The position numbers and the translations under genes were made by a program. Of a stretch of DNA of 43,769 nucleotides, positions 11,015-43,769 are shown piece after piece. The notes beneath the pieces were generated by a model. That model searched no databases, was not told the origin of the DNA, and worked only from the letters and a program-made list of their open reading frames with translations. How positions within the stretch are numbered: the stretch's first letter is position 1; each line of letters opens with the position of its first letter. Source of the DNA: a virus; the IMG/VR virus record IMGVR_UViG_3300027573_000012, positions 1 through 43,769 of that record; one strand, written 5' to 3'.

Positions 11015-11377
11015 ATGGCTGACACAACTCCCCCGAAATTGGCTCTCAAAGAAAAGGCCCCGAAGGTCGCAAAAGAGTCGAAAGAGCCAAAAGAAAAGAA
11101 GCCCCGCGCTCCCCGTAAGGATTACGGGTTCCTCCCAGACGCTGTTATCAAGCTTACTGAGGGAGAAAAGAACTACAAGGGGAAGCGTAAGGAAATGTAC
11201 GAAGCTCTTAAAAAGAGCAATGGCAAGACCGTACAGCACTTCCTGGATAATAACAAGAACGATGAGGACCCGCCGCGCGGGTGGATCCGCTTCTTCGTCC
11301 AGAATGAAGCAATCCAGCTCATTGGGGGCACCAAGAAAGAGCCGGCCAAGCCAAAAGAAGCTGTCGCTTCGGCTTAA
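11015..11377 (+). CDS. Member D of the SAR/WF small-protein family, 120 aa
   Basis: A very basic N-terminal linker of about 45 residues rich in Lys, Glu and Pro leads into a domain with NYKGKRKEMYEAL, GKTVQHFL and GWIRFFVQNEAIQLI. The spacing matches the small proteins at 41417, 41903 and 42401, whose equivalents are N[FY]...SAR.L[YW] and a W(F/W)V core. This member has normal base composition and plenty of Asp/Glu. The Lys-rich arm suggests nucleic-acid binding. SD AAAGGAG at six bases. A strong terminator follows at once. Confidence 0.75.
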   Translation: MADTTPPKLALKEKAPKVAKESKEPKEKKPRAPRKDYGFLPDAVIKLTEGEKNYKGKRKEMYEALKKSNGKTVQHFLDNNKNDEDPPRGWIRFFVQNEAIQLIGGTKKEPAKPKEAVASA

Positions 11378-11431: not shown

Positions 11432-12355
11432 ATGAATTGTTTAGTAATTGGAGGCCAAGGCTTCCTAGGACGAGCCATCGTTAATGAACTAGAAAAGGAG
11501 GGTAACGATGTTACGGTGGCCGACCGTACCTTGGGCCATGATATCACAGACTTCAAGTCCATCAAGGAGCTAATAAGAGGACGTGACGAAGTATACCACA
11601 TGGCGGGAATCCTTGGCACATCGGAGATGAACCGGGACATCCACAACTCAATCACGGTAAATATCCTGGGGACTGTCAATGTCCTCGAGGCCTGCCGCCA
11701 GACAGGGGTCCCCCGTCTGTTCTACCCCAGCAAGCCGAACGTATGGCTGAATACTTACTCGGTGACCAAGCAGGCTGCCGAGGACTTTGCTCAACTCTAC
11801 AATAAGAATACCGATTTAAAGGTAATCTGCCTGCGGTATTTCAACGCCTATGGAGCAGGTCAGCACACCCACCCCGTTCGGAAGATAATCCCCACGTTCG
11901 CTATAGAAACTTACTTTAAGAAGCCCGTAGAGATCTACGGCAGCGGGGAGAATATCGTTGATATGATTGATGCCAGAGACATCGCAAAGTATTCCGTCGC
12001 AGCAACCCGTGCTGAATTAAATGATACCATATATGACCTTGGGCGGGGCATAGAAATATCAGTCCGTGAAGTTGCTTTTGATGTTTTAGACATTACCCAC
12101 GGTTCAGTAAAGTATATTCCTATGCGAGCGGGGGAGGTTGAGCCAACAGTTCTTGTTGCCAATGTTGACAAGCTACTCTCCAGATTAGGAATGAACGGGT
12201 TCCTTCCCTGGGAGGATTCATTACGCGAAGCTATAGACTACTATCATTGTTTACCTGAATATGAATTAAGGGAGGCTTATGAATTTCTACATCATGACAA
12301 GAGGACGAGTGGGGCGTCAATACACTTGGCGGAACCTACCGGAGGAAATACGTGA
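11432..12355 (+). CDS. NAD-dependent sugar-nucleotide epimerase/dehydratase (extended SDR), 307 aa
   Basis: N-terminal Rossmann motif GGQGFLG (7-13), catalytic YSVTK, and LRYFNAYG downstream as in UDP-sugar epimerases. The usual Ser/Thr of the triad may lie in the SKPNVWLNTY stretch. It would make an activated sugar. The neighbouring TAGT-like glycosyltransferase suggests the sugar is for DNA bases rather than for cell-surface glycan, although surface modification cannot be excluded. It overlaps the next gene by 77 bases. Confidence 0.85.
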   Translation: MNCLVIGGQGFLGRAIVNELEKEGNDVTVADRTLGHDITDFKSIKELIRGRDEVYHMAGILGTSEMNRDIHNSITVNILGTVNVLEACRQTGVPRLFYPSKPNVWLNTYSVTKQAAEDFAQLYNKNTDLKVICLRYFNAYGAGQHTHPVRKIIPTFAIETYFKKPVEIYGSGENIVDMIDARDIAKYSVAATRAELNDTIYDLGRGIEISVREVAFDVLDITHGSVKYIPMRAGEVEPTVLVANVDKLLSRLGMNGFLPWEDSLREAIDYYHCLPEYELREAYEFLHHDKRTSGASIHLAEPTGGNT

Positions 12356-13139
12356 ACGAACATTCTTGGTTTGCCCTCGGGACGAAGTTGATATACACAC
12401 TGATGTCAACATTTGCAGAATCATCGCTACCCCCACCGAGATACGAAGCCATTCAGCGAAACTTAAATGGATCTTTGAAGATGGAGTCGGAGATGGGTCC
12501 GATAAATGTGTCATACTCGATGACGATCTCACCTTCTCAATTCCATATATCCGTGGGGATGGAGAAATCAGACTTCGGGCCGTCAAATCCGAGTTAGACC
12601 TAGAGAAAGTCGCAGTAGGTTTTCGCTTTATGGAGGCACTATTAGATGATACGGCGCTCGTCGGAATCCACCCACGCCAGATGGGACACCTTCAAAAACC
12701 GCCCTATACCGAAAATGGTAAGATCGTTTGCGTCTTTGGTATTAACCGAGCGATGGCGGGAAACATACCCGACCTGGATCGTTTTCCTATTATGGGCGAT
12801 ATTACTCTCAACGCTAGCCTGCTTGAGCGCGGTCTTAGTAATAAGATTATTACAACATTCTTCATAGATTGGTACCCTTGTCAAGCCGAGGGTGGGTGTT
12901 CGCTAACGCGAACCCCTGAGATTCAAGCAGAAGCTTGTCACTGGCTGGAGCGTCGCTTCGGCCCATACATCACAGCAGTTGAAAAGGAGTCGAAAAATGG
13001 ATGGCTGGGAGGCAAGCGAGTCGATTTTAGAGGTCGGTGGAAAGCCCTACACGCGGCAGGAACTTCTGGCCTATTGGATATCAGAGCGCGAGAAGATAAG
13101 GCTGAAGAAAGAAGCTGGGGACCGAAAGCCGTGGAGTGA
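12279..13139 (+). CDS. TAGT-like (TET-associated) glycosyltransferase, 286 aa
   Basis: A GT-A type glycosyltransferase by its N-terminal pattern (MNFYIMTRGRVGRQYTWRNL) and the VILDDDLTF motif (DDD at 81-83, metal and nucleotide-sugar binding), with VGIHPRQMG and VFGINRAMAG downstream. This layout resembles the TAGT family described by comparative genomics as glycosylating hydroxymethylated bases in phage DNA. It sits between an epimerase and an aGPT-PPlase/HMUDK-helical protein, which supports that reading. The acceptor base and the sugar are not determined by sequence. Confidence 0.7.
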   Translation: MNFYIMTRGRVGRQYTWRNLPEEIRERTFLVCPRDEVDIHTDVNICRIIATPTEIRSHSAKLKWIFEDGVGDGSDKCVILDDDLTFSIPYIRGDGEIRLRAVKSELDLEKVAVGFRFMEALLDDTALVGIHPRQMGHLQKPPYTENGKIVCVFGINRAMAGNIPDLDRFPIMGDITLNASLLERGLSNKIITTFFIDWYPCQAEGGCSLTRTPEIQAEACHWLERRFGPYITAVEKESKNGWLGGKRVDFRGRWKALHAAGTSGLLDIRAREDKAEERSWGPKAVE

Positions 13140-13839
13140 TGACCCCGTATTTCAGAACACCTACTTTACGAATGTACACAGGGAGGATGACCGTGTCACC
13201 CGATGGATCAGAGAAAACTATACCCTTGCCCTCTACGGAGGAAAGTACGAATACTCTATGGTTGTCGCTCGGATCTTCAATCGGCCTAGTACACTTGAAT
13301 ATCTTAAACTCGACCTCGTTCCATTTAACCTTAGCCGAATCTACGAACGACTTGACCAATGGAGAATCCATAGAAATACGACCTGGGGGAACGCTTACGT
13401 TATCACGACAAACGGGGTCCCAATGGAAAAACTACTGTATTGTCTTGAGCTCATAGGTAAGGTCTATGATATGGAGTTTAAGTACGGGGACTGCCGAACT
13501 ACGTGGGACTTCCTCCAGAAGGTAAACGGTTTAGGAAGTTTCCTCTCCGCGCAGGTAGTCGCTGATTTAAAGAATACTGAGGGACATCCCCTCTTTGTCG
13601 CTAGTGACAAAGAGACTTTCAGTGCTCCCGGCCCCGGCTCCCTTCGTGGGCTGGCATGGTTCTTTGAAACTAAGGTACGACCCGGTGACTATCAGTTCCT
13701 AATACAGGAGGCCAAGTCCATCCTTGGGTGGGAAGGGGACATGCAAGATCTGCAAAATTGCTTCTGTGAGTACGATAAGTACTGTAGAGTGGCGTATGGG
13801 ACCGGTAGGTCAAAAAGACGCTATGCAGGTGCGGTGTAG
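12997..13839 (+). CDS. HMUDK-helical/aGPT-PPlase family DNA base-modification protein, 280 aa
   Basis: Shows the family hallmark PWSDDP (45-50) followed by FTNVHREDDRVTRW (57-70), then a helix-hairpin-helix-glycosylase-like helical body. Related phage proteins are annotated as 5-hmdU DNA kinase helical domain or alpha-glutamyl/putrescinyl thymine pyrophosphorylase and act in thymidine hypermodification. No P-loop is present, so a kinase step is not encoded in this protein. The ATG at 12997 is chosen over an upstream TTG because AAAGGAG lies eight bases before it. It overlaps the glycosyltransferase gene by 143 bases. Confidence 0.75.
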   Translation: MDGWEASESILEVGGKPYTRQELLAYWISEREKIRLKKEAGDRKPWSDDPVFQNTYFTNVHREDDRVTRWIRENYTLALYGGKYEYSMVVARIFNRPSTLEYLKLDLVPFNLSRIYERLDQWRIHRNTTWGNAYVITTNGVPMEKLLYCLELIGKVYDMEFKYGDCRTTWDFLQKVNGLGSFLSAQVVADLKNTEGHPLFVASDKETFSAPGPGSLRGLAWFFETKVRPGDYQFLIQEAKSILGWEGDMQDLQNCFCEYDKYCRVAYGTGRSKRRYAGAV

Positions 13840-13840
13840 A

Positions 13841-13900
13841 CGCGTCGAGATAAGTGGGCCGCTAGGGTAGCCTAGCCCGGTTTACCCCCTTGTCGACGCG
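13841..13900 (+). ncRNA. Structured element between the base-modification genes
   Basis: CGCGTCGA (13841-13848) pairs with TCGACGCG (13893-13900). Inside, GCTAGG and CCTAGC form a second hairpin with a GTAG loop. No T-run follows. It could be a processing site or a translational control element for the thymidylate-synthase homologue at 13937. Confidence 0.45.
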
Positions 13901-13936
13901 GTTTAAAACAGCCTTACAAAACAACAGGTTACGCCA

Positions 13937-14884
13937 ATGATTACACAAATCTTCGGTAATAACATTCCTCGAGCCTATAATGACGGGCTCTGGAAGCTAC
14001 GGAGTAGCGGGGTACGGCAGGGCAGCCGAAACGGTACGGTCTTCTCTATCCCAGCTCCCGTTCTACTGACCATACGATACCCCCAGGAGCGGGTCCTCTT
14101 CGACGAGAAGCGCAATGCCAACCCCTTCTTTCATGTCATGGAATTCTGCTGGATGATGGCAGGTTCCAATGACGCTGGCTGGGTCAGTCAGTTCAACAAG
14201 AGGATGATGGAATATGCAGATGATGGGATTCTTCGAGGTGCTTACGGATATAGATGGCAACACGGTGATCAGATTAGAAATACCATCAATCTACTTCGCA
14301 AAGACGCCGGAACTAGACAGGCAGTTATTTCAATGTGGGACCCGGTTTATGATGGACCATCTGCAAGGACTTCCGACCGACCTTGTAATACTCACATTTA
14401 CTTCCGAGTGTCGCCCACGGGTATGCTGAATATGACGGTGTGCAACCGGAGTAACGATTTCATATGGGGTATGCTCGGCGCAAACGCCGTGCATATGACA
14501 CTACTACATGAACTGATCTCCTTTGAAACAGAGATACCACTCGGCGATTATATGGTCTTCTCCAATAACGTTCACGTCTATGAAAAGCATATGAAAGAAT
14601 TGGTGGAAAAGCCGGTACTCGACGACCGATACCCCCTTAACATCATGCCGTTGCTCCACAATGGGGAGCATTACATGGATCTCATCCAGGACTGTAAGGA
14701 TCTCGTGGAGTACGGAGTCCAGAAATCGTTTAGAATTGATTGGATGCGACACGTTGCAGAGCCAATATTCAGGGCCTACATAGACAAAGGAGAAAGGATG
14801 TCTTACATTAAGAGGATAAAGGCTGAGGACTGGCGAGTGGCCTGCAACGAATGGGCAATTCGTGCTAGCTCAAGATTGTCATAG
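13937..14884 (+). CDS. Thymidylate synthase homologue, possible dUMP hydroxymethylase, 315 aa
   Basis: Has the catalytic Cys in DRPCNTHIYF (C150), the RSND loop (171-174) and an Asn in GANAVHM (N183) that in this superfamily favours dUMP over dCMP. GAYGYRWQ matches the YGxxWR region. The stretch that normally carries the WDEW tryptophan of true thymidylate synthases reads GWVSQFNKRMMEY instead; loss of that tryptophan is a feature of the hydroxymethylases. With the glycosyltransferase and aGPT-PPlase-like genes just upstream, a 5-hydroxymethyl-dUMP role is plausible. Plain dTMP synthesis remains the alternative. Confidence 0.85.
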   Translation: MITQIFGNNIPRAYNDGLWKLRSSGVRQGSRNGTVFSIPAPVLLTIRYPQERVLFDEKRNANPFFHVMEFCWMMAGSNDAGWVSQFNKRMMEYADDGILRGAYGYRWQHGDQIRNTINLLRKDAGTRQAVISMWDPVYDGPSARTSDRPCNTHIYFRVSPTGMLNMTVCNRSNDFIWGMLGANAVHMTLLHELISFETEIPLGDYMVFSNNVHVYEKHMKELVEKPVLDDRYPLNIMPLLHNGEHYMDLIQDCKDLVEYGVQKSFRIDWMRHVAEPIFRAYIDKGERMSYIKRIKAEDWRVACNEWAIRASSRLS

Positions 14885-36627: not shown

Positions 36628-38704
36628 CTGCCCCATTCTCCTTCTGATGCTTCGCCTTATTATCGTCTACCTTGATCTGATTTTGGGTCTCATGCGTATC
36701 CTGGATCATTGCTGCCTCGCTTTGCGAAGCCTCAGCCTGAATTTCCGCAATCATCTCCGCCTTGATCACCGCCAGCTCCTTCTCAAGCTCCGCCTTGAGC
36801 TCTGCCATGACATTCTGGCTCTTAACCTGGAGCTGTTGCATCGCCGACTGAGCTTTAAGCTGCTCAATCTGCATCTGCATCTGGAGTTTCTGCATCTCAG
36901 CCTGCGCTTTGAGCTCTTCAGGCGACGGACCCTTCTCTTGCGGACCAGCCTTGATCATCTTGTCTATGGCTTGGTCGAGGACCCCCTCAATCTCGTTGCT
37001 GCCCTTGAAGCCAGACATAGTCCATTTCAGGATCATAAGGAGGGGGGCAGTAGCATTGGGGTCCATCTCTGCGAGCGGCATTGCCGCGGACATAAACTGC
37101 GACAAGGCTCCAATGTACTCCGTCCTCTCGCGCTGTAGCCTCTGGTAGTCCAACATCGCCATAGATTCTGGTGCTATTTTGATTCGCCATAGTGAATCCG
37201 TCGGGGTCTTGATCAGTTGTATCGCTTGCGCAGCGAAGGGAGCGTCGAAAGACATCATTATATTTGATCTCTTTGCGATAGTATCAGCTGAGAAATGGCG
37301 AGCTATGATCTCGGCACGAATTGACATAAGCTCCGATGCGAACTGAGCGAGTTCCTCGCTGATAGCCTGCACACGGACAGAGGCAAACTGACGCTTCGAA
37401 CTCGAGGCCTCGGCGGTTTCTCTATCTGGGCCGTTAGCGCCTCGCATAATCTCTGACATGCCTGTGACTTCATAGAGGAGCCCCATCGCATCCGTTCTTT
37501 GCTCCTTGAGGTGGCTAAGTACCTCAGCCAACTCTTTCACCGGCATCCAGTCGATGACGCCCTCCAGCCCGACCTTCTCAGAGAATCTCGCCCAGTCCTT
37601 AACCGGGATTAGATCATTCTCCACGCCCTCCTCGAACATTCTACGGATCTCGGGCGTGGAGGCATCGTAGACGCCCACCGCTTTGATTGCATCCGTAATG
37701 AGAGATATTCTCGTCTCGAGCTGGTCGATTTGATTGTATAAGTCCTGCGCAAGAAGGAAGTCTGGCTGAGGGAGATAGGTGTCCGTAATTGGGTTCGCAA
37801 CCAGTGGTTCAGGTACCGGCCAGAAGTTAAATAACCCGAGAGGGTCAGGCTGGGTGTCAAGAAGCTCCTGCGGCTCCTCGGAATACCAGTAGACGTGCTT
37901 ATTGTCTTTACACCAAATCTCCCATACCTCAGCGCGGTCCCAAGCATCGGTCTTTTCCGGCGTCCGATCGTCAACGTCCTCATCGTCACGTCCTTTCTTA
38001 TTGTAAGTCAGCTTCTCAGCCTTCTTCTCGCCGAAACGCTTCGCTGCCTGATCCTTCGTGGGGAAAGTGCGGAAGGAAATCCAGGGGACCTCTGACCATA
38101 CGCGGGCGAAACCCCACAAGAAGTCGTCCCAGTGAACGTACTCTATGGGAGCCCGCTCGTCGACAAGCTTCTGCTGCTTAACTTCTGGGGCAAGCTCGTT
38201 GCCCTCGGCATCCGAGATGGCCGGTACGAGGTTCTCTTCGGAATCGAACTCGTATCTTACGCGGGCGATGCCAAGGCCGGGGAGCAGACGGTCGGAAAGG
38301 ACGTGACCTAAGATACCTTTGACATCGCTGCCTGCGGCGAGGATGGAATTATTGAGCATCCGATCGTAGATAAGAGCGGCGACGCGGGCCACGTCGTCCT
38401 CGGGATCCGCGTAGCGGCGGGATACGTCCACCTTTGGCGGATTTCCGTTAACCATGTCCATCAAAGTCTTGGTATTACTATGGAACAGATTCACTCGGAA
38501 GGCGTAACCCGACGCGGTAGCCCGCTCATCTCCATCTAGCGTAGCTCGGGCGTCCTGGTAACGAGCATGGATGCGCTTACCCTTCTTTCTCCACTTGGAG
38601 ATGCGCTCCTCAGAGGCTTTAAGCTCCGCTTTCCATCGCTTCCACTGGTCTTTCGGACTCGCGTCAAAGTCCTTTACCGATCTAATGCTCTCTGGGCTGC
38701 TCAT
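36617..38704 (-). CDS. Portal protein, 695 aa
   Basis: Long protein with the usual podovirus portal layout: a helical N-terminus (SPESIRSVKDFDASPKDQWK), a DFLWGFARVW-type alpha/beta core, YDASTPEIRRMFEEG, a conserved ARFSEKVGLEGVIDWMPVKE segment, RGANGPDRETAEASSSK, and a C-terminal barrel-like coiled coil rich in Gln/Ala/Lys. It directly follows the terminase (four-base overlap). It forms the dodecameric DNA entry ring. Confidence 0.85.
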   Translation of the reverse strand: MSSPESIRSVKDFDASPKDQWKRWKAELKASEERISKWRKKGKRIHARYQDARATLDGDERATASGYAFRVNLFHSNTKTLMDMVNGNPPKVDVSRRYADPEDDVARVAALIYDRMLNNSILAAGSDVKGILGHVLSDRLLPGLGIARVRYEFDSEENLVPAISDAEGNELAPEVKQQKLVDERAPIEYVHWDDFLWGFARVWSEVPWISFRTFPTKDQAAKRFGEKKAEKLTYNKKGRDDEDVDDRTPEKTDAWDRAEVWEIWCKDNKHVYWYSEEPQELLDTQPDPLGLFNFWPVPEPLVANPITDTYLPQPDFLLAQDLYNQIDQLETRISLITDAIKAVGVYDASTPEIRRMFEEGVENDLIPVKDWARFSEKVGLEGVIDWMPVKELAEVLSHLKEQRTDAMGLLYEVTGMSEIMRGANGPDRETAEASSSKRQFASVRVQAISEELAQFASELMSIRAEIIARHFSADTIAKRSNIMMSFDAPFAAQAIQLIKTPTDSLWRIKIAPESMAMLDYQRLQRERTEYIGALSQFMSAAMPLAEMDPNATAPLLMILKWTMSGFKGSNEIEGVLDQAIDKMIKAGPQEKGPSPEELKAQAEMQKLQMQMQIEQLKAQSAMQQLQVKSQNVMAELKAELEKELAVIKAEMIAEIQAEASQSEAAMIQDTHETQNQIKVDDNKAKHQKENGADAP

Positions 38705-40029
38705 AATCTATGTCTGCTCCAATTTACCTTCTCGCGCTGAGCGAAAAGATCGTCGAGGGTGTACGCGGGACGGCTGAAAGCCGTCCGTTCCACGGCTCGT
38801 TCTACCGCGCCATGTCGCGCACGCGCCACGAGGGCGAAATACCGGAATGCGTCCGCGCCGTGGCAGGCCCAGTCATGGTCGGGCTTATCTGAGAAGACCT
38901 GCTTCAACTCGTCGTACCGTCGCCGGTAGGCTCGCAGGGCCTCGATTCCGTAGGCACAGCGAGTTTTGTCTATGGATGAAGTCTGGAGTACCAAACGCGA
39001 AGCGTTGATTCCATCCTGTAAGTCCAACCGGGGGACAATGCTCCAGGTCCAGTCCAGTTCTCGCTCCTCGGTCCATCGTAGACACTGTTCGATAGTACTT
39101 CGCCCTGTCTGTAAGGTCTTAGCTCTTGCATCGTGGGGGAGGTAGAGGGTATCGTACACATAGGGTTTAGACTCCAAAAGATTGAGATAGTGCTCCAGCG
39201 CCTCGCCCTCTCCTTCGACGAAGTCGATAAGAGCGAACCCGTCGGGTCGCTCTTGCCAAAACCAGATAGCGGTAGAGTCGGAGAAGCCGAGGTCCATGGC
39301 GACGTTGACGTTTAGATCGGGGTCGTGATCGACCTGGCCGATGCGGCCATCGCGCTCCATTTCCGAGATGATCTCCGAATAGTAAGTGCCCTTCACGGCT
39401 GCCTCGAAGGAGCACTCGTACTCTTGCGCGTACTGGTTCTCGTCCATGATAGTACGGGCGATTTGGAGCTCGGAATCGAGCAGAATGCCGGACGCGGAAG
39501 CGGGGACCTCGAGGTAGAACCAGTCGGGAGATCGCTTCGCTATCTCTCTGATATCGTAAAAGTGATTTTTACCCTTCGGTGTCCCGATGAACGTGGCCCA
39601 CCCTTGACGGTCAGTCAGAGTGGGGAAGATTACCTCAGCCCAGAGGGAGGGGCGACAATCGCCAAACTCGTCGAGGACTACGCCATCGAGGTAGATGCCC
39701 CGAAGGGCGTCGGGATTATCTGCACCGTAGAGGCTGATCTTGCTCCCGTTGAATAGCTCGACGGAGAGCTCCGACTCCCGGGTTTTCGTTTGCGTGTCTT
39801 TGGTAGCGTACTTTAGATACATCCACGCTACATCTTTTGCCTGCCGGTAGAAGGGGGCGATGTAGGCATATCGCGCCAGCGATTTCTGCGTATAGAGGGC
39901 TCGGGTGTGAAGATCGTTCACACATGCGACGGTCTTACCGCCGCGACGGTGGAAGACAATACAGGCCCATCGCTTGTCTCTCTCGTGAAACGAACGAAAG
40001 GCCTCGCGGGGGGTGTAGTAGACGTCCAT
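38701..40029 (-). CDS. terL: Terminase large subunit, 442 aa
   Basis: ATPase domain with Walker A HRRGGKT (27-33), Walker B GVVLDEFGD (about 115-122) and an FIGTPKGKNH motif (coupling). The C-terminal nuclease domain has AMDLGFSDST (first acid) and later Asp/His residues including DHDWACHGADAF. Packages DNA into the capsid. Type of ends cannot be read from the sequence, because the window is circular. Confidence 0.95.
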   Translation of the reverse strand: MDVYYTPREAFRSFHERDKRWACIVFHRRGGKTVACVNDLHTRALYTQKSLARYAYIAPFYRQAKDVAWMYLKYATKDTQTKTRESELSVELFNGSKISLYGADNPDALRGIYLDGVVLDEFGDCRPSLWAEVIFPTLTDRQGWATFIGTPKGKNHFYDIREIAKRSPDWFYLEVPASASGILLDSELQIARTIMDENQYAQEYECSFEAAVKGTYYSEIISEMERDGRIGQVDHDPDLNVNVAMDLGFSDSTAIWFWQERPDGFALIDFVEGEGEALEHYLNLLESKPYVYDTLYLPHDARAKTLQTGRSTIEQCLRWTEERELDWTWSIVPRLDLQDGINASRLVLQTSSIDKTRCAYGIEALRAYRRRYDELKQVFSDKPDHDWACHGADAFRYFALVARARHGAVERAVERTAFSRPAYTLDDLFAQREKVNWSRHRL

Positions 40030-40464
40030 CTAGGGGTCGATCGCTGCGGTCATAGTGACTGTCGCCGTCGCCAGAATAGTATTCGGTGGCGCAGCCATAC
40101 GGAGCTGCACCGTCCCGGTGCAGGTGTGGGAGACTGGAAGGGCTGGGGCGGATGCCTCTATAGTCCATACCCGTGTACCGCTCATAGAGATCCATGAATT
40201 GATTAATGCTCCCCCCATGAATGTGGTATCGCCTGTGACGTTATAGATTACGTCGTAGTCGGTGGAGACCGCGCCAGCGGGGAGCCATACCCCGATAGTG
40301 GTCCAGGTCGTCCCATCAAGGGACGACTGCTCGTTACCGGCTGTCGTCAGGCGGTAGCCGACCGTTTTTGTCCCTGTGGGGATCGACTCTGAGATGACCG
40401 TACCGACAAGGACGGCTGTAAGCCGTCTCTGAGCGGCGTTCGCACTGAAGTGCGTGATGCTCAT
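40030..40464 (-). CDS. Late beta-rich hypothetical protein, 144 aa
   Basis: A Thr/Val/Ala-rich protein with alternating strands (GTVISESIPTGTKTVGYRLT; ILATATVTMTAAIDP) typical of small beta-sandwich virion proteins. It sits between the small and large terminase genes, an unusual place for a structural protein. The start overlaps the TerS-like stop in ATGA. No domain name assigned. Confidence 0.65.
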   Translation of the reverse strand: MSITHFSANAAQRRLTAVLVGTVISESIPTGTKTVGYRLTTAGNEQSSLDGTTWTTIGVWLPAGAVSTDYDVIYNVTGDTTFMGGALINSWISMSGTRVWTIEASAPALPVSHTCTGTVQLRMAAPPNTILATATVTMTAAIDP

Positions 40465-40859
40465 CGGTCTAGCGCCGTGGGCGGTAGGACGTGCTGGATG
40501 ACGACCTTGTCATCGGACTCGGACGAGCCGAGCGTGAACGCTCGGGAGGCCTCGCTGGGGAGGATGCGGGCGAATAGCTTGAAAAATTCTGTAGGGTGCT
40601 GATCGCCCCAGTGGGCGAGACGGGGAACACCACCGATAAGCTCGAAGGCGTCGTGGAAGGCGTTTACAACGCGAAGTCTCTTGACCTCACGGGGGACGGA
40701 GATACGGGATAGACCGTTTCCCGAAGAGGCGAGGTCCGTGAGGCTTCGACAATCTTGCGCAGTTTCGGAATACGGAGCGGGGTCTGCGTAGACTCGCTCC
40801 TCGATGGGACCTTCAGAGATCTTTTCGAATTCTTCATGCGTTATCAGTTCTTGTTTCAT
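40461..40859 (-). CDS. Terminase small subunit-like protein, 132 aa
   Basis: The motif AFELIGGVPRLAHWGDQHPT followed by EFFKLFARILPSEAS is typical of small proteins encoded before the large terminase in podoviruses and of TerS-like DNA-binding subunits. A helical domain of about 55 residues follows a disordered N-terminus. It would recognise the packaging start on phage DNA. Assignment rests on this motif and position. Confidence 0.65.
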   Translation of the reverse strand: MKQELITHEEFEKISEGPIEERVYADPAPYSETAQDCRSLTDLASSGNGLSRISVPREVKRLRVVNAFHDAFELIGGVPRLAHWGDQHPTEFFKLFARILPSEASRAFTLGSSESDDKVVIQHVLPPTALDR

Positions 40860-41197
40860 TCTCGAATGAGACTCGTCGGAGGCTTAGGTTTGAGGACCCT
40901 GCAATTCGTTTGGTTCGAGTTATTGCTTTCTATGTCATTCGAATTATAAGCTCTTGCTACGATATAATGAGTTCCCACCGACATGTCGGTGAGCGTATAC
41001 GTTGTCGCGGAGGGGTCCATGATGGTGGCTAAAATCGTATAGGGACCCCCGGCTACGCCTGAGACATACAGCCGATACCCTGACAAGTCTGTCAGAGGGG
41101 AACCGTTGGTGTTCTGCGTGGGAGGGGTCCATGATAAGATACAATCTGCAAATGCAGATTGCGACAAGAGGAGAAGAAGGGGAAGGAATCGCCGCAT
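40856..41197 (-). CDS. Secreted fibronectin-III-like protein, 113 aa
   Basis: Signal peptide MRRFLPLLLLLSQSAFA, then a compact domain with LSWTPPTQNTNGSPLTDL, GYRLYVSG and YIVARAYNSN, the pattern of a fibronectin type III fold. One Cys lies at each end. First gene of the late block. Exported Ig/FN3-like phage proteins can bind cell-surface glycans, but here the role is unknown. A TTGCAA promoter lies just upstream. Confidence 0.75.
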   Translation of the reverse strand: MRRFLPLLLLLSQSAFADCILSWTPPTQNTNGSPLTDLSGYRLYVSGVAGGPYTILATIMDPSATTYTLTDMSVGTHYIVARAYNSNDIESNNSNQTNCRVLKPKPPTSLIRE

Positions 41198-41246: not shown

Positions 41247-41345
41247 TCTCGAAATCGAGAGTGGGAGGGCGAGGCGTTAAGCTTTCGCTTAACGTTTGGG
41301 GGTTCGGGGGGGCGGCCTTTAATTTTACGAAATTTTAGGCCCGCC
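41247..41345. repeat. Cluster of short inverted repeats at the island's left edge
   Basis: Three small inverted repeats lie in this noncoding stretch: TCTCGA-AA-TCGAGA (41247-41260), CGTTAAGC-TTTC-GCTTAACG (41275-41294) and a GC-rich imperfect arm pair around 41308-41345 (GGGCGGCCT / AGGCCCGCCC). The left border of the GA/TC-free segment falls inside the last one. Confidence 0.5.
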
Positions 41346-41362
41346 CTTATAGCTAAACGGTA

Positions 41363-41399
41363 TAAATAAATAGCGGGTTAGCTATTGCTAACCCGCTAC
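41363..41399 (-). terminator. Intrinsic terminator of the 41417-41728 gene
   Basis: TAGCGGGTTAGC and GCTAACCCGCTA form a perfect 12-bp stem with a four-base loop (41372-41399). Downstream on the minus strand is ATTTATTTAT. It obeys the GA/TC exclusion completely. Confidence 0.8.
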
Positions 41400-41416
41400 C
41401 GTTATGCTAGGGCCGT

Positions 41417-41728
41417 TTAGCTTTGCGGCCCCGTTAACGTGGCATAGCCATTGCGTATAAACCACCGCAAGTAAGGCATAGGCGGCTCTACTGTACCTTT
41501 TTTAGTAAAGCAAGGCGGGTTAGCTATAATAGCTGCACAAAAGGCAGCAGCCGGCTGGCCTGCATGCGCCGCTAATACCGCATGGTACAGCGCACGCGCG
41601 CTGCCTTGGGTAAAATTTACCTTTGCGGCTGTTAGCCCTATGGTGTGCCCCATTGCGCCAGCAGGTGCGGTTGGTGTGGCAGCCGGTGCCGGTGCTACCG
41701 GCTGGTGTACCTTGTTTGGTTTAGCCAT
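41417..41728 (-). CDS. Member A of the SAR/WF family, 103 aa, nearly free of acidic residues
   Basis: An Ala/Pro-rich, probably disordered N-terminal arm of about 38 residues leads to a domain with NFTQGSARALYHAVL, PAAAFCAAI and PYLRWFIRNGYATL, matching the paralogues at 41903, 42401 and 11015. The protein has no Asp and one Glu, which is the single GA/TC exception in the island (41487-41488). All Ser codons are AGY, all Phe TTT, and the stop is TAA. The ribosome site is AAAAGG rather than the GGAG used elsewhere. Basic and small, so DNA or RNA binding is likely, but untested. Confidence 0.9.
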   Translation of the reverse strand: MAKPNKVHQPVAPAPAATPTAPAGAMGHTIGLTAAKVNFTQGSARALYHAVLAAHAGQPAAAFCAAIIANPPCFTKKGTVEPPMPYLRWFIRNGYATLTGPQS

Positions 41729-41748
41729 GTTTGCAATTACCTTTTGCT

Positions 41749-41776
41749 AGTTACTAGGCAACATTACCTAGTAACT
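41749..41776. repeat. Inverted repeat in the leader of the 41417-41728 gene
   Basis: AGTTACTAGG and CCTAGTAACT are perfect 10-base arms with an eight-base loop. They lie just downstream of the -10 box of the leftward promoter, so they could be an operator or an RNA hairpin in the leader. Confidence 0.7.
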
Positions 41777-41780
41777 GCAT

Positions 41781-41807
41781 GGTATACCCCTAGCTAACCT
41801 ATTGCAA
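41781..41807 (-). promoter_or_regulatory. Promoter of the 41417-41728 gene, free of GA/TC
   Basis: On the minus strand TTGCAA (41807-41802), 15 bases, TATACC (41786-41781). The usual -35 TTGACA would contain GA; the box found avoids it. Spacing of 15 is short, so activity may be modest or the -35 one base off. Confidence 0.6.
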
Positions 41808-41840
41808 GCTTTTTTTAAACTATTTTTTAAAATAAAATGC

Positions 41841-41869
41841 TTGCATTGTTTTAGCTATGGGCGTATAAA
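41841..41869 (+). promoter_or_regulatory. Promoter of the 41903-42151 gene, free of GA/TC
   Basis: TTGCAT (41841-41846), 17 bases, TATAAA (41864-41869). Good sigma70-like spacing. Both boxes avoid GA and TC. It is divergent from the promoter at 41781-41807, with an AT-rich stretch between. Confidence 0.7.
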
Positions 41870-41902
41870 GGGTAAACCAACCAACTAGCAAAGGGTAATT
41901 AA

Positions 41903-42151
41903 ATGCAACATACCATGCAGGTTTTAAATACAGGCAATTACCATGCCAATAGTGCCCGCGGGTTATGGGTGGCCGCAATAGTTAAGGCAGCTAACCAAGG
42001 GTTAACAGTAAACCAGTTTTGTATGCAGGCGGCAGTTAACCCACCACAAGCGCCTAAATTTGGCGCCTGGCCCAACCCGCTAACCTACGCTAACTGGTGG
42101 GTTAACTGGGCACAGCGTACCGGGCATATTAGGCTGCACCGCAAGCTATAG
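41903..42151 (+). CDS. Member B of the SAR/WF family, 82 aa, no acidic residues at all
   Basis: Eighty-two residues with not one Asp or Glu. The motif NYHANSARGLWVAAI and C-terminal YANWWVNWAQRTGHIRL align with the other three family members; a Glu in member C at the residue after SAR is Gly here and Ala in member A. The ribosome site AAAGGG also avoids GA. Divergent from member A with its own promoter; a perfect palindrome follows its stop. The protein is very basic, so nucleic-acid binding is the simplest guess. Confidence 0.9.
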   Translation: MQHTMQVLNTGNYHANSARGLWVAAIVKAANQGLTVNQFCMQAAVNPPQAPKFGAWPNPLTYANWWVNWAQRTGHIRLHRKL

Positions 42152-42158
42152 CTAAATA

Positions 42159-42188
42159 GCACGGGCCTTGCATATGCAAGGCCCGTGC
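42159..42188. repeat. Perfect 30-base palindrome after the 41903-42151 gene
   Basis: Fifteen-base arms beginning GCACGGGCC meet with no loop, eight bases after the TAG stop. It can act as a terminator hairpin for the rightward gene although no T-run follows. It lies six bases before the right border of the GA/TC-free island, and the inverted repeats at 41247-41345 mark its left border. Confidence 0.85.
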
Positions 42189-42193
42189 CAACC

Positions 42194-42362
42194 GACCTGG
42201 GCCGACGAAAACGAGAAGAAAGAACGATTTTCGCATCGGTCATGACCGAGCTTCGCAGAATTGAGGGCGGAGTCTTAAAGATCCTTCTCAAATCGGTCAT
42301 GATTGATCTCTCTGTTTCTGTTTCGGTGCGCTTCTCTCTACCGAGTTCTTCGATTTCAGGCG
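42194..42362. other. Noncoding gap with repeated ATCGGTCATGA, rich in GA/TC
   Basis: No credible gene. ATCGGTCATGA occurs at 42235-42245 and 42292-42302; the first copy sits in a perfect 14-base palindrome (TCGGTCATGACCGA, 42236-42249). These could be binding sites for a regulator. GA and TC make up about a quarter of the dinucleotides here, roughly twice the usual share, in contrast with the neighbouring island. Confidence 0.55.
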
Positions 42363-42400: not shown

Positions 42401-42634
42401 CTACTTCTTGGAGTCGACGAGCGTCGCGTACTTTTCACGGACAAACCAGTTCAGCCATCCCTTCGCCTTTTCGGCACGCCCAGATTTCGGCAGCTTCGCG
42501 GGAGTCTCAGTCATGGCGGTAATGAAATCCGCCACGGGCTTGCCATTGAATTTCACCAGCTCGTTGTAATACAGCTCGCGAGCTGATTCAGTACGGAAAT
42601 TCGCCTTTTTCTTTTCTACCTTTATGATACTCAT
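42401..42634 (-). CDS. Member C of the SAR/WF family, 77 aa, normal composition
   Basis: A 77-residue protein with NFRTESARELYYNEL, GKPVADFITAM and GWLNWFVREKYATL, the same order as members A, B and D. It has ordinary Asp/Glu content, so it shows what the family looks like without the GA/TC constraint: positions that are Glu here are Gln, Gly or Ala in A and B. It has its own sigma70-like promoter (42682-42710), a leader hairpin (GGGCATGGTGCCC), SD GGGAG and a strong terminator, so it is an independent unit like A and B. Confidence 0.85.
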   Translation of the reverse strand: MSIIKVEKKKANFRTESARELYYNELVKFNGKPVADFITAMTETPAKLPKSGRAEKAKGWLNWFVREKYATLVDSKK

Positions 42635-42846: not shown

Positions 42847-43197
42847 GGTTGCTGTGGTTGCCAGCCACCCCCACCCCCGCCTAATACATATATTCGAGAT
42901 ATGTCAAGAACAACGATACCGTGTATATAGGGGAATGGGTAATTATTGGCAACCTCAGCAACCTTGGCAACCTAGACATAAAGATACGTATATAAAACAT
43001 ACACTTAAAACTTCTCTTTCTTGGTTGCCAACGCATTCGCGTTGGCAACCTGATCCGTTTGACTGGCAACCAATTTCTGCCAAAACGGCCTTTGATCCAA
43101 CTGACCCTGGTAATCTTGCTCTTTACCGACACTTCCAACCCAATAATATAGATTTGTAACTCCATTATATTTGATTTTCTTGCCTTGGTTGGCAACC
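42847..43197. repeat. GGCAACC iteron cluster, candidate replication origin
   Basis: GGCAACC or its complement GGTTGCC recurs at 42856, 42948, 42966, 43023, 43044, 43065 and 43191, with near-matches at 42847 (GGTTGCT) and 42957 (AGCAACC). Three copies in direct orientation lie within 27 bases (42946-42972). At 43023-43050 two copies form a perfect 12-bp inverted repeat with an ATTC loop. AT-rich segments lie between. The cluster spans the end of the primase-helicase gene and the noncoding stretch below it. Iterated sites next to replication genes are typical of origins. Confidence 0.6.
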
Positions 43198-43769
43198 TGT
43201 ACTCGTGCATTTTTCAATGCTTTGACCATCGCCATAGACTGCCTACGATCTATATCATTCCATGGAACCATACCCTCCATATAGCACCATGACAGCTCCT
43301 TCGCAGTCATGAGACATGGCTCATTTTCGGCGAGCATGATAATGCGACCTACCACCAATTCCTCTCCATTTACCACATGATCCCTCACCCATGTATCTAT
43401 CGGCGAGTGGGTTATATCTATCATGTCCTGCTTCGCCTGAGTCCATGGAGCTTCAGCGTGCGGGTTAAACGAATCGGAAATCTTCCGATTCAGCAGGTAA
43501 TCCATGACTGCCGGAGCACCCACATCACTTCGTAACCATTCCCATCGTGGCTCCCAGTAGGCCATATCGTTTGCATGTGGAAACTTCCTTGGTATTTCCA
43601 AAATGGCAAACCGACGGTCAAATTCGTCTAGTTTCAGTGATCCAATATCGTTAGAATTCAAAAACACATTAATCACGTTTTCCAGCTTTATTGCGTCAAC
43701 TCCCTTCCGTTCACATCGGAGATGTTCATTGGTAATAAGGTCTTTGAGGACGTTATATACTTTGATTCC
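43005..43769 (-). CDS. Primase-helicase, C-terminal part (continues from 1)
   Basis: The remainder of the SF3 primase-helicase begun at 1465. It carries the NVFLNSND sensor motif and DRRFAILEIP (probable arginine finger) just after the junction, then a helical C-terminal domain (WVRDHVVNGEELVVGRIIML and following). Positions 43643-43769 duplicate 1-127. Two GGCAACC iterons and the 12-bp inverted repeat (43023-43050) lie within its last 20 codons. The stop is at 43005. Confidence 0.9.
   Translation of the reverse strand, partial: GIKVYNVLKDLITNEHLRCERKGVDAIKLENVINVFLNSNDIGSLKLDEFDRRFAILEIPRKFPHANDMAYWEPRWEWLRSDVGAPAVMDYLLNRKISDSFNPHAEAPWTQAKQDMIDITHSPIDTWVRDHVVNGEELVVGRIIMLAENEPCLMTAKELSWCYMEGMVPWNDIDRRQSMAMVKALKNARVQVANQGKKIKYNGVTNLYYWVGSVGKEQDYQGQLDQRPFWQKLVASQTDQVANANALATKKEKF
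43643..43769. repeat. Terminal direct repeat, right copy
   Basis: Identical to positions 1-127. Counting it once gives a circle of 43,642 bp and restores one unbroken primase-helicase gene. Confidence 0.95.

Follow-up and report, generated by a model that had tools for sequence, protein, structure and literature searches.

A gene unit free of GA and TC dinucleotides in phages carrying thymidine-modification genes

The window analysed here, a virus record of 43,769 bases from IMG/VR, carries an 863-base island of two small divergent genes from which the dinucleotides GA and TC are almost completely excluded. The exclusion is confined to the genes and their flanks, recurs in related phages, is maintained by selection and occurs together with genes for thymidine modification. 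On balance, we lean towards the reading that the island avoids the T-C site of the phage's own thymine-modifying enzyme, letting one gene be transcribed from hypermodified DNA. The record has a 127-bp direct terminal repeat (1–127 and 43643–43769) and probably represents a complete genome, circular or permuted. The features are collected in Table 1.

Table 1. Features of the window, with coordinates, strand and the evidence for each.
Feature	Position	Strand	Evidence or remark
Family paralog adjoining the modification genes	11015–11377	+	GA/TC 50 vs 49.7 expected; synteny in relatives
Nucleotide-sugar epimerase	11432–12355	+	PF01370, phrog_540
TAGT-type glycosyltransferase	12279–13139	+	PF20691, phrog_842
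5-hmdU DNA kinase helical-domain protein, candidate TC-specific enzyme	12979–13839	+	PF18723, 123 bits
Thymidylate-synthase-like protein, candidate dUMP hydroxymethylase	13937–14884	+	PF00303, phrog_5131
Terminase large subunit (terL)	38701–40029	-	phrog_2
Small-terminase-like protein	40461–40859	-	by position and by eye
GA/TC-free island	41331–42193	.	0 GA, 1 TC; best segment 41305–42194
Terminator-like hairpin then T-rich stretch, gene A	41371–41398	-	
Island gene A, 103 aa, one acidic residue (Glu81)	41417–41728	-	winged-helix-like model; AF2 core pLDDT above 90
Glu81 codon, sole GA/TC in island	41486–41488	-	Glu invariant in A3
Divergent promoter region between A and B	41729–41902	.	candidate sigma70-like boxes
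Candidate boxes, gene A	TTGCAA 41802–41807; TACCAT 41779–41784		sigma70-like
Candidate boxes, gene B	TTGCAT 41841–41846; TATAAA 41864–41869		sigma70-like
Island gene B, 82 aa, no acidic residues, paralog of A	41903–42151	+	homology
Perfect palindrome, hairpin after gene B, no T run following	42159–42188	+	
Paralog of A and B outside island	42401–42634	-	GA/TC 34 vs 30.6 expected

An exact count of the island gave no GA and one TC (at 41487), with even base use (A 219, C 212, G 212, T 220). At the background rate of 0.141 per step, the probability of one GA/TC or fewer in 862 steps is 10^-54.7. The two longest stretches without GA/TC (707 and 158 bp) fall within the island; no other stretch of the window exceeds 59 bp. 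A maximal-segment scan of the window placed the best-scoring GA/TC-poor segment at nearly the same borders, with two GA/TC. The other dinucleotides in the island stand at 1.92 for GC, 1.59 for TA, 1.23–1.32 for AA, TT, CC and GG, and 0.79–1.04 for the remainder. This table is close to that of plain exclusion of GA and TC, so nothing systematic took their place. Because GA is TC on the opposite strand, excluding both means excluding TC from the duplex, and the equal cleanness of the two strands shows that the rule acts on duplex DNA. The preliminary description of this DNA had reported the absence of GA and the single TC in 863 bases, a strand-symmetric rule and its reach over promoter region, ribosome site, gene and terminator, and had set it apart from the avoidance of one 4–6 bp site; all of these points stand, the first at P ~10^-55. 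It had also considered a misassembly or chimera. The IMG/VR contig L001 is 100% identical over the island and through both flanks, and this, together with the many contigs that carry islands of different sequence, rules misassembly out.

The island consists of genes A and B, each followed by a hairpin. Where GA is missing, no Asp or Glu codon can be written, and the lone TC falls in the codon of a conserved glutamate, so this exception is not random. For the same proteins, 25.1 GA/TC would be expected in gene A and 19.9 in gene B, against one and none observed. A and B share homology with one another and with two further genes elsewhere in the window (Table 1); one of the latter, a second family member with normal GA/TC, adjoins the modification genes in the window and in many relatives. 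Island genes hold 0–2 GA/TC where their proteins would allow 12–30, whereas the paralogs give z near 0; the exclusion is thus tied to the locus and not to the protein family. The candidate sigma70-like boxes between A and B score no better than a Markov null.

The AF2 model of the island product has a core pLDDT above 90, and VIA aligned it at Z 3.3–6.4 with several chains, which we take to be winged-helix domains. Foldseek searches with the model against PDB and viral sets returned no match below 0.001, and members of the family met no convincing family in Pfam or PHROG. The product is a small basic protein with a predicted winged-helix-like fold, the evidence for the fold being weak. Searches among named phages found neither island nor paralog proteins, and the island DNA gave a single 48-bp match there at E 0.9. 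The small-terminase-like protein had no match in Pfam. A small fibronectin type III domain protein (40856–41197) lies between the island and the terminase genes, and a 25-bp element built around the palindrome TCGGTCATGACCGA occurs twice just outside the island (42228–42309).

Two sets of relatives were drawn from IMG/VR: terL relatives, and contigs picked by their kinase-domain protein, taken whole where possible. All ten dinucleotide classes were scanned with one maximal-segment statistic and a cut-off of 25 nats. The GA/TC class yielded 25 entries above the cut-off, corresponding to 23 distinct related contigs (L019 is the same contig as G014, and L049 is a near-copy of G031). The other classes yielded only two AA/TT entries and one TA entry, which are a few low-complexity or composition effects. 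The inspected islands comprise one small family gene, the DNA upstream of it and, in most cases, a hairpin resembling a terminator, with two such units in the window; the weak G053 and part of G064 are less clear-cut. Their proteins are nearly free of Asp and Glu, and all belong to one small-protein family. In strict islands, GA and TC are absent from about 70–250 bp upstream of the start and, in nearly all, to 40–140 bp past the stop. In the terL-selected contigs, the island lies 0.6–4.4 kb upstream of terL. No island was present in the scanned parts of Mvi-Yong1342-1, Pam3 (without the first 5 kb), LuckyBarnes (without the last 0.8 kb) and ctUhy936.

Pooled over other intergenic regions, TC depletion did not exceed that of controls. 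Two further intergenic gaps in the window are low in GA/TC (13840–13936, observed/expected 0.42; 42931–43004, 0.46). Repeats flank some of the islands. In L068, the 13-bp repeat TATATTATGTTAA and its reverse complement, 18–20 bp apart, lie on either side of the island gene (279–316 and 789–935); by eye, similar arrays surround the islands of G007, L009, G010 and G044, and other motifs occur in G031 and G069. The 13-bp arrays are operator-, iteron- or packaging-site-like.

The GA/TC exclusion is under active purifying selection. The close relatives G007, G009 and L009 differ at 24–30 synonymous codons with no new GA/TC, where random synonymous changes would create 8–10 (P < 1/4000). In seven strict islands (G000, G002, G007, G009, L009, G040 and G054), the sole in-gene exception is the conserved Glu codon, found in the contexts TVEPP, KPEP and QQEP. 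The rule is leaky or lost in other relatives, which are scattered over the kinase tree. Relaxed copies are seen in G010 (L072, 6530–6799) and G044 (L192, 1827–2096), where the protein keeps one acidic residue. Sense TC has been regained in both, with 17 TC against two GA, a fossil-like trace of the rule. Narrower contexts appear in G064 (HTC 12 vs 70.9 expected, GTC at its normal count; p 2e-7), L008 (TCD 10 vs 39.5 expected, TCC spared; p 5e-5) and G082 (TCH 10 vs 66.7 expected); they were picked after looking, and a rough correction leaves G064 and L008 standing, with the others suggestive. A fixed T-C core with varying neighbours is as expected of the recognition site of an evolving enzyme, drifting by lineage.

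In the window, the genes for the epimerase, the TAGT glycosyltransferase, the PF18723 protein and the thymidylate-synthase (TS)-like protein adjoin one another. The PF18723 protein is of the 5-HMUDK family but covers the helical domain only, and no P-loop partner for it was found among the window proteins. The PF00303 and phrog_5131 matches do not separate a TS from a dUMP hydroxymethylase. The cluster of the relatives consists of a TS-like enzyme, a 5-hmdU-DNA-kinase helical domain and often a glycosyltransferase. Judged by gene content, these clusters suggest that the phage group chemically modifies the thymines of its own DNA; given the glycosyltransferase neighbour and the absent P-loop partner, the chemistry may differ from that of known kinases. 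In G014 (L075/L076, 25714–26280) and G024 (L104, 14732–15199), the gene next to the island, in divergent orientation, codes for a small P-loop NTPase (TGPPGxGK), which could be the missing kinase partner. A search for a T7-type RNA polymerase (PF00940) gave no match, but the control likewise matched nowhere, so this negative does not amount to absence. Searching genome contigs with the kinase profile gave no confirmed match, hence no host.

All terL-selected island contigs of more than 20 kb encode PF18723, and six long contigs that lack it are also without an island. Such kinase-less contigs are scarce and for the most part distant, so shared descent partly confounds this association. A strict island is missing from roughly one half of the full-length contigs that have the kinase domain, close relatives included, and is thus not essential to all of these phages. 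The presence of TAGT does not separate island from no-island contigs, and the modification cluster is the same in the strict G009 and the relaxed G010 and G044.

From the genes and the related kinases, we envisage that the DNA is made with 5-hydroxymethyluracil (hmU), after which thymine-type bases would be hypermodified in a T-C context. Selection would strip every T-C site, on both strands, from a compact unit (two divergent ones in the window), which would stay without the bulky modification that the remainder of the genome would carry. Unmodified host RNA polymerase could then read the island gene from hypermodified DNA, most likely just after injection; as virion DNA would enter modified, we expect the island unit to be read first. 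The small basic, winged-helix-like product might act as a first regulator, helping expression of the rest. Among the causes listed in the preliminary description, a need for DNA that lacks a context-dependent modified base has the most support.

Biochemical data on known enzymes are consistent with this scheme. 5-HMUDK acts at TG and TC (PMC6449724, PMC7653180). With a phosphorylated hmU template, E. coli RNA polymerase gave 37% of the transcription from unmodified template and 10% of that from hmU, and hmU itself raises transcription by this polymerase (PMC6457204). The islands avoid TC/GA and not TG/CA, which is indirect evidence for a TC context. Against the transcription reading, the known kinases also act at TG, which the island does not avoid, although an ATG-started gene could not avoid it. 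If only the template strand mattered, TC should persist in the sense strand, but it is just as rare there, and the other promoters of the genome must function although they are not TC-free. That the exclusion tracks the gene from promoter to terminator, and not other intergenic regions, suggests that transcription of the unit must not meet the modification. The main weaknesses of the proposal are the equally clean non-template strand, the missing P-loop partner and the roughly one half of kinase-domain phages that do without a strict island.

The same modification might serve another purpose, with unmodified DNA needed near terS and terL for the start of packaging, a replication origin or self-binding by the island protein. 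The position of the island upstream of terL in terL-selected contigs, the iteron-like arrays flanking it in some relatives and the equal cleanness of both strands fit such a DNA transaction. The borders, however, track promoter to terminator instead of a fixed distance from terS, the arrays themselves contain GA/TC, and the same conserved gene is present each time; a cut or binding site needs no 450–890 clean bases that include synonymous sites. We consider this account unlikely, if deserving of attention. Quite improbable, in our judgement, is that the island escapes a nuclease or glycosylase with TC/GA, plain or modified, as its target, whether the enzyme comes from the host, a rival phage or the phage itself. 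In its favour, the excluded motif is short and double-stranded, with neighbours that differ between lineages, but 98% of the genome has a normal density of the site, a clean zone of 0.9 kb would not save that genome, and there would be no reason to spare one small gene alone.

Avoidance at the RNA level seems very improbable. The defence ADP-ribosyltransferase CmdT modifies the A of GA steps in mRNA, with a preference for such dinucleotides in single-stranded RNA (PMC11618068), and the relaxed copies of G010 and G044 keep sense GA rarer than sense TC. This asymmetry also fits relaxed copies whose protein has yet to regain Asp and Glu. Strict islands are equally without sense TC, and DNA well upstream of the gene is clean as well, so both strands would have to be transcribed and the RNA enzyme would have to be strand-blind. 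We give hardly any credence to mutation bias, recent capture or assembly error, for which the sharp island edges might be cited. The identical second contig spans both of these edges, islands of different sequence occur in many contigs, the dinucleotide table shows plain exclusion with no replacement bias, and the protein retains one Glu codon with its GA. The relatives diverged at synonymous codons under the rule, and relaxed copies regained TC. Capture from a GA/TC-free element, proposed in the preliminary description, is further contradicted by the place of the island upstream of terL in several diverged relatives, by the normally spelled paralogs in the same phages and by the relaxed copies in close relatives. 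Two other candidates were dropped. For deazaguanine modification at GA motifs, the window proteins examined included no such genes; APOBEC-like mutation would have replaced the acidic residues in the manner of GA -> AA changes, a pattern that is not seen.

If the island does escape the phage's own modification, its purchase at the loss of nearly all Asp and Glu would point to a very strong cost of single modified sites. We see an even chance of a wider pattern, in which widespread uncultured phages hypermodify thymines in a TC context and keep exactly one modification-proof unit as a private channel for host RNA polymerase, the exemptions of each lineage reporting the context of its enzyme. 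The target context of uncharacterised DNA-modifying enzymes could then be revealed by genome sequence alone. The first transcription of phage DNA that carries bulky bases becomes testable, and a small protein family, found in the island and beside the modification genes, stands out as a likely key regulator.

In phages M6, ViI and phi W-14, the pathway runs from 5hmdU through 5-HMUDK to hypermodified T, and we know of no modification-free gene described in them. Nor, to our knowledge, has a natural gene been described that excludes a dinucleotide almost totally on both strands at the price of nearly all its Asp and Glu. The open-licence literature searched gave no earlier description of a gene kept free of the target dinucleotide of a modification pathway; the pathway is of a known kind, and the target-dinucleotide-free gene is new as far as our literature search goes. 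M6, ViI and phi W-14 carry hypermodified T at TG and TC, ascribed to 5-HMUDK (PMC6449724). They share with the window phage a TS-like enzyme and a 5-HMUDK-family domain, and in them the modification is tied to T in TS (TG/TC) dinucleotides (PMC6449724). The window phage differs in its proposed context, TC only, and in having a glycosyltransferase beside the kinase domain with no P-loop partner found. In Brevibacterium phage LuckyBarnes and Caudoviricetes sp. ctUhy936, a TS or pyrimidine hydroxymethylase likewise adjoins one or more glycosyltransferases, and LuckyBarnes also has a kinase-domain protein; unlike the window, the scanned parts of both are without a GA/TC-free island. Base J (glucosyl-hmU) of kinetoplastids, a glycosylated hmU linked to transcription arrest in the literature, offers an analogy only, being eukaryotic, made by other enzymes and unaccompanied by dinucleotide-free genes. 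The avoidance of restriction sites by phages is also selection against the recognition site of an enzyme, but it concerns 4–6 bp words throughout the genome, whereas in the island a 2-bp core is almost totally excluded from a single gene, and the enzyme avoided is probably encoded by the phage itself.
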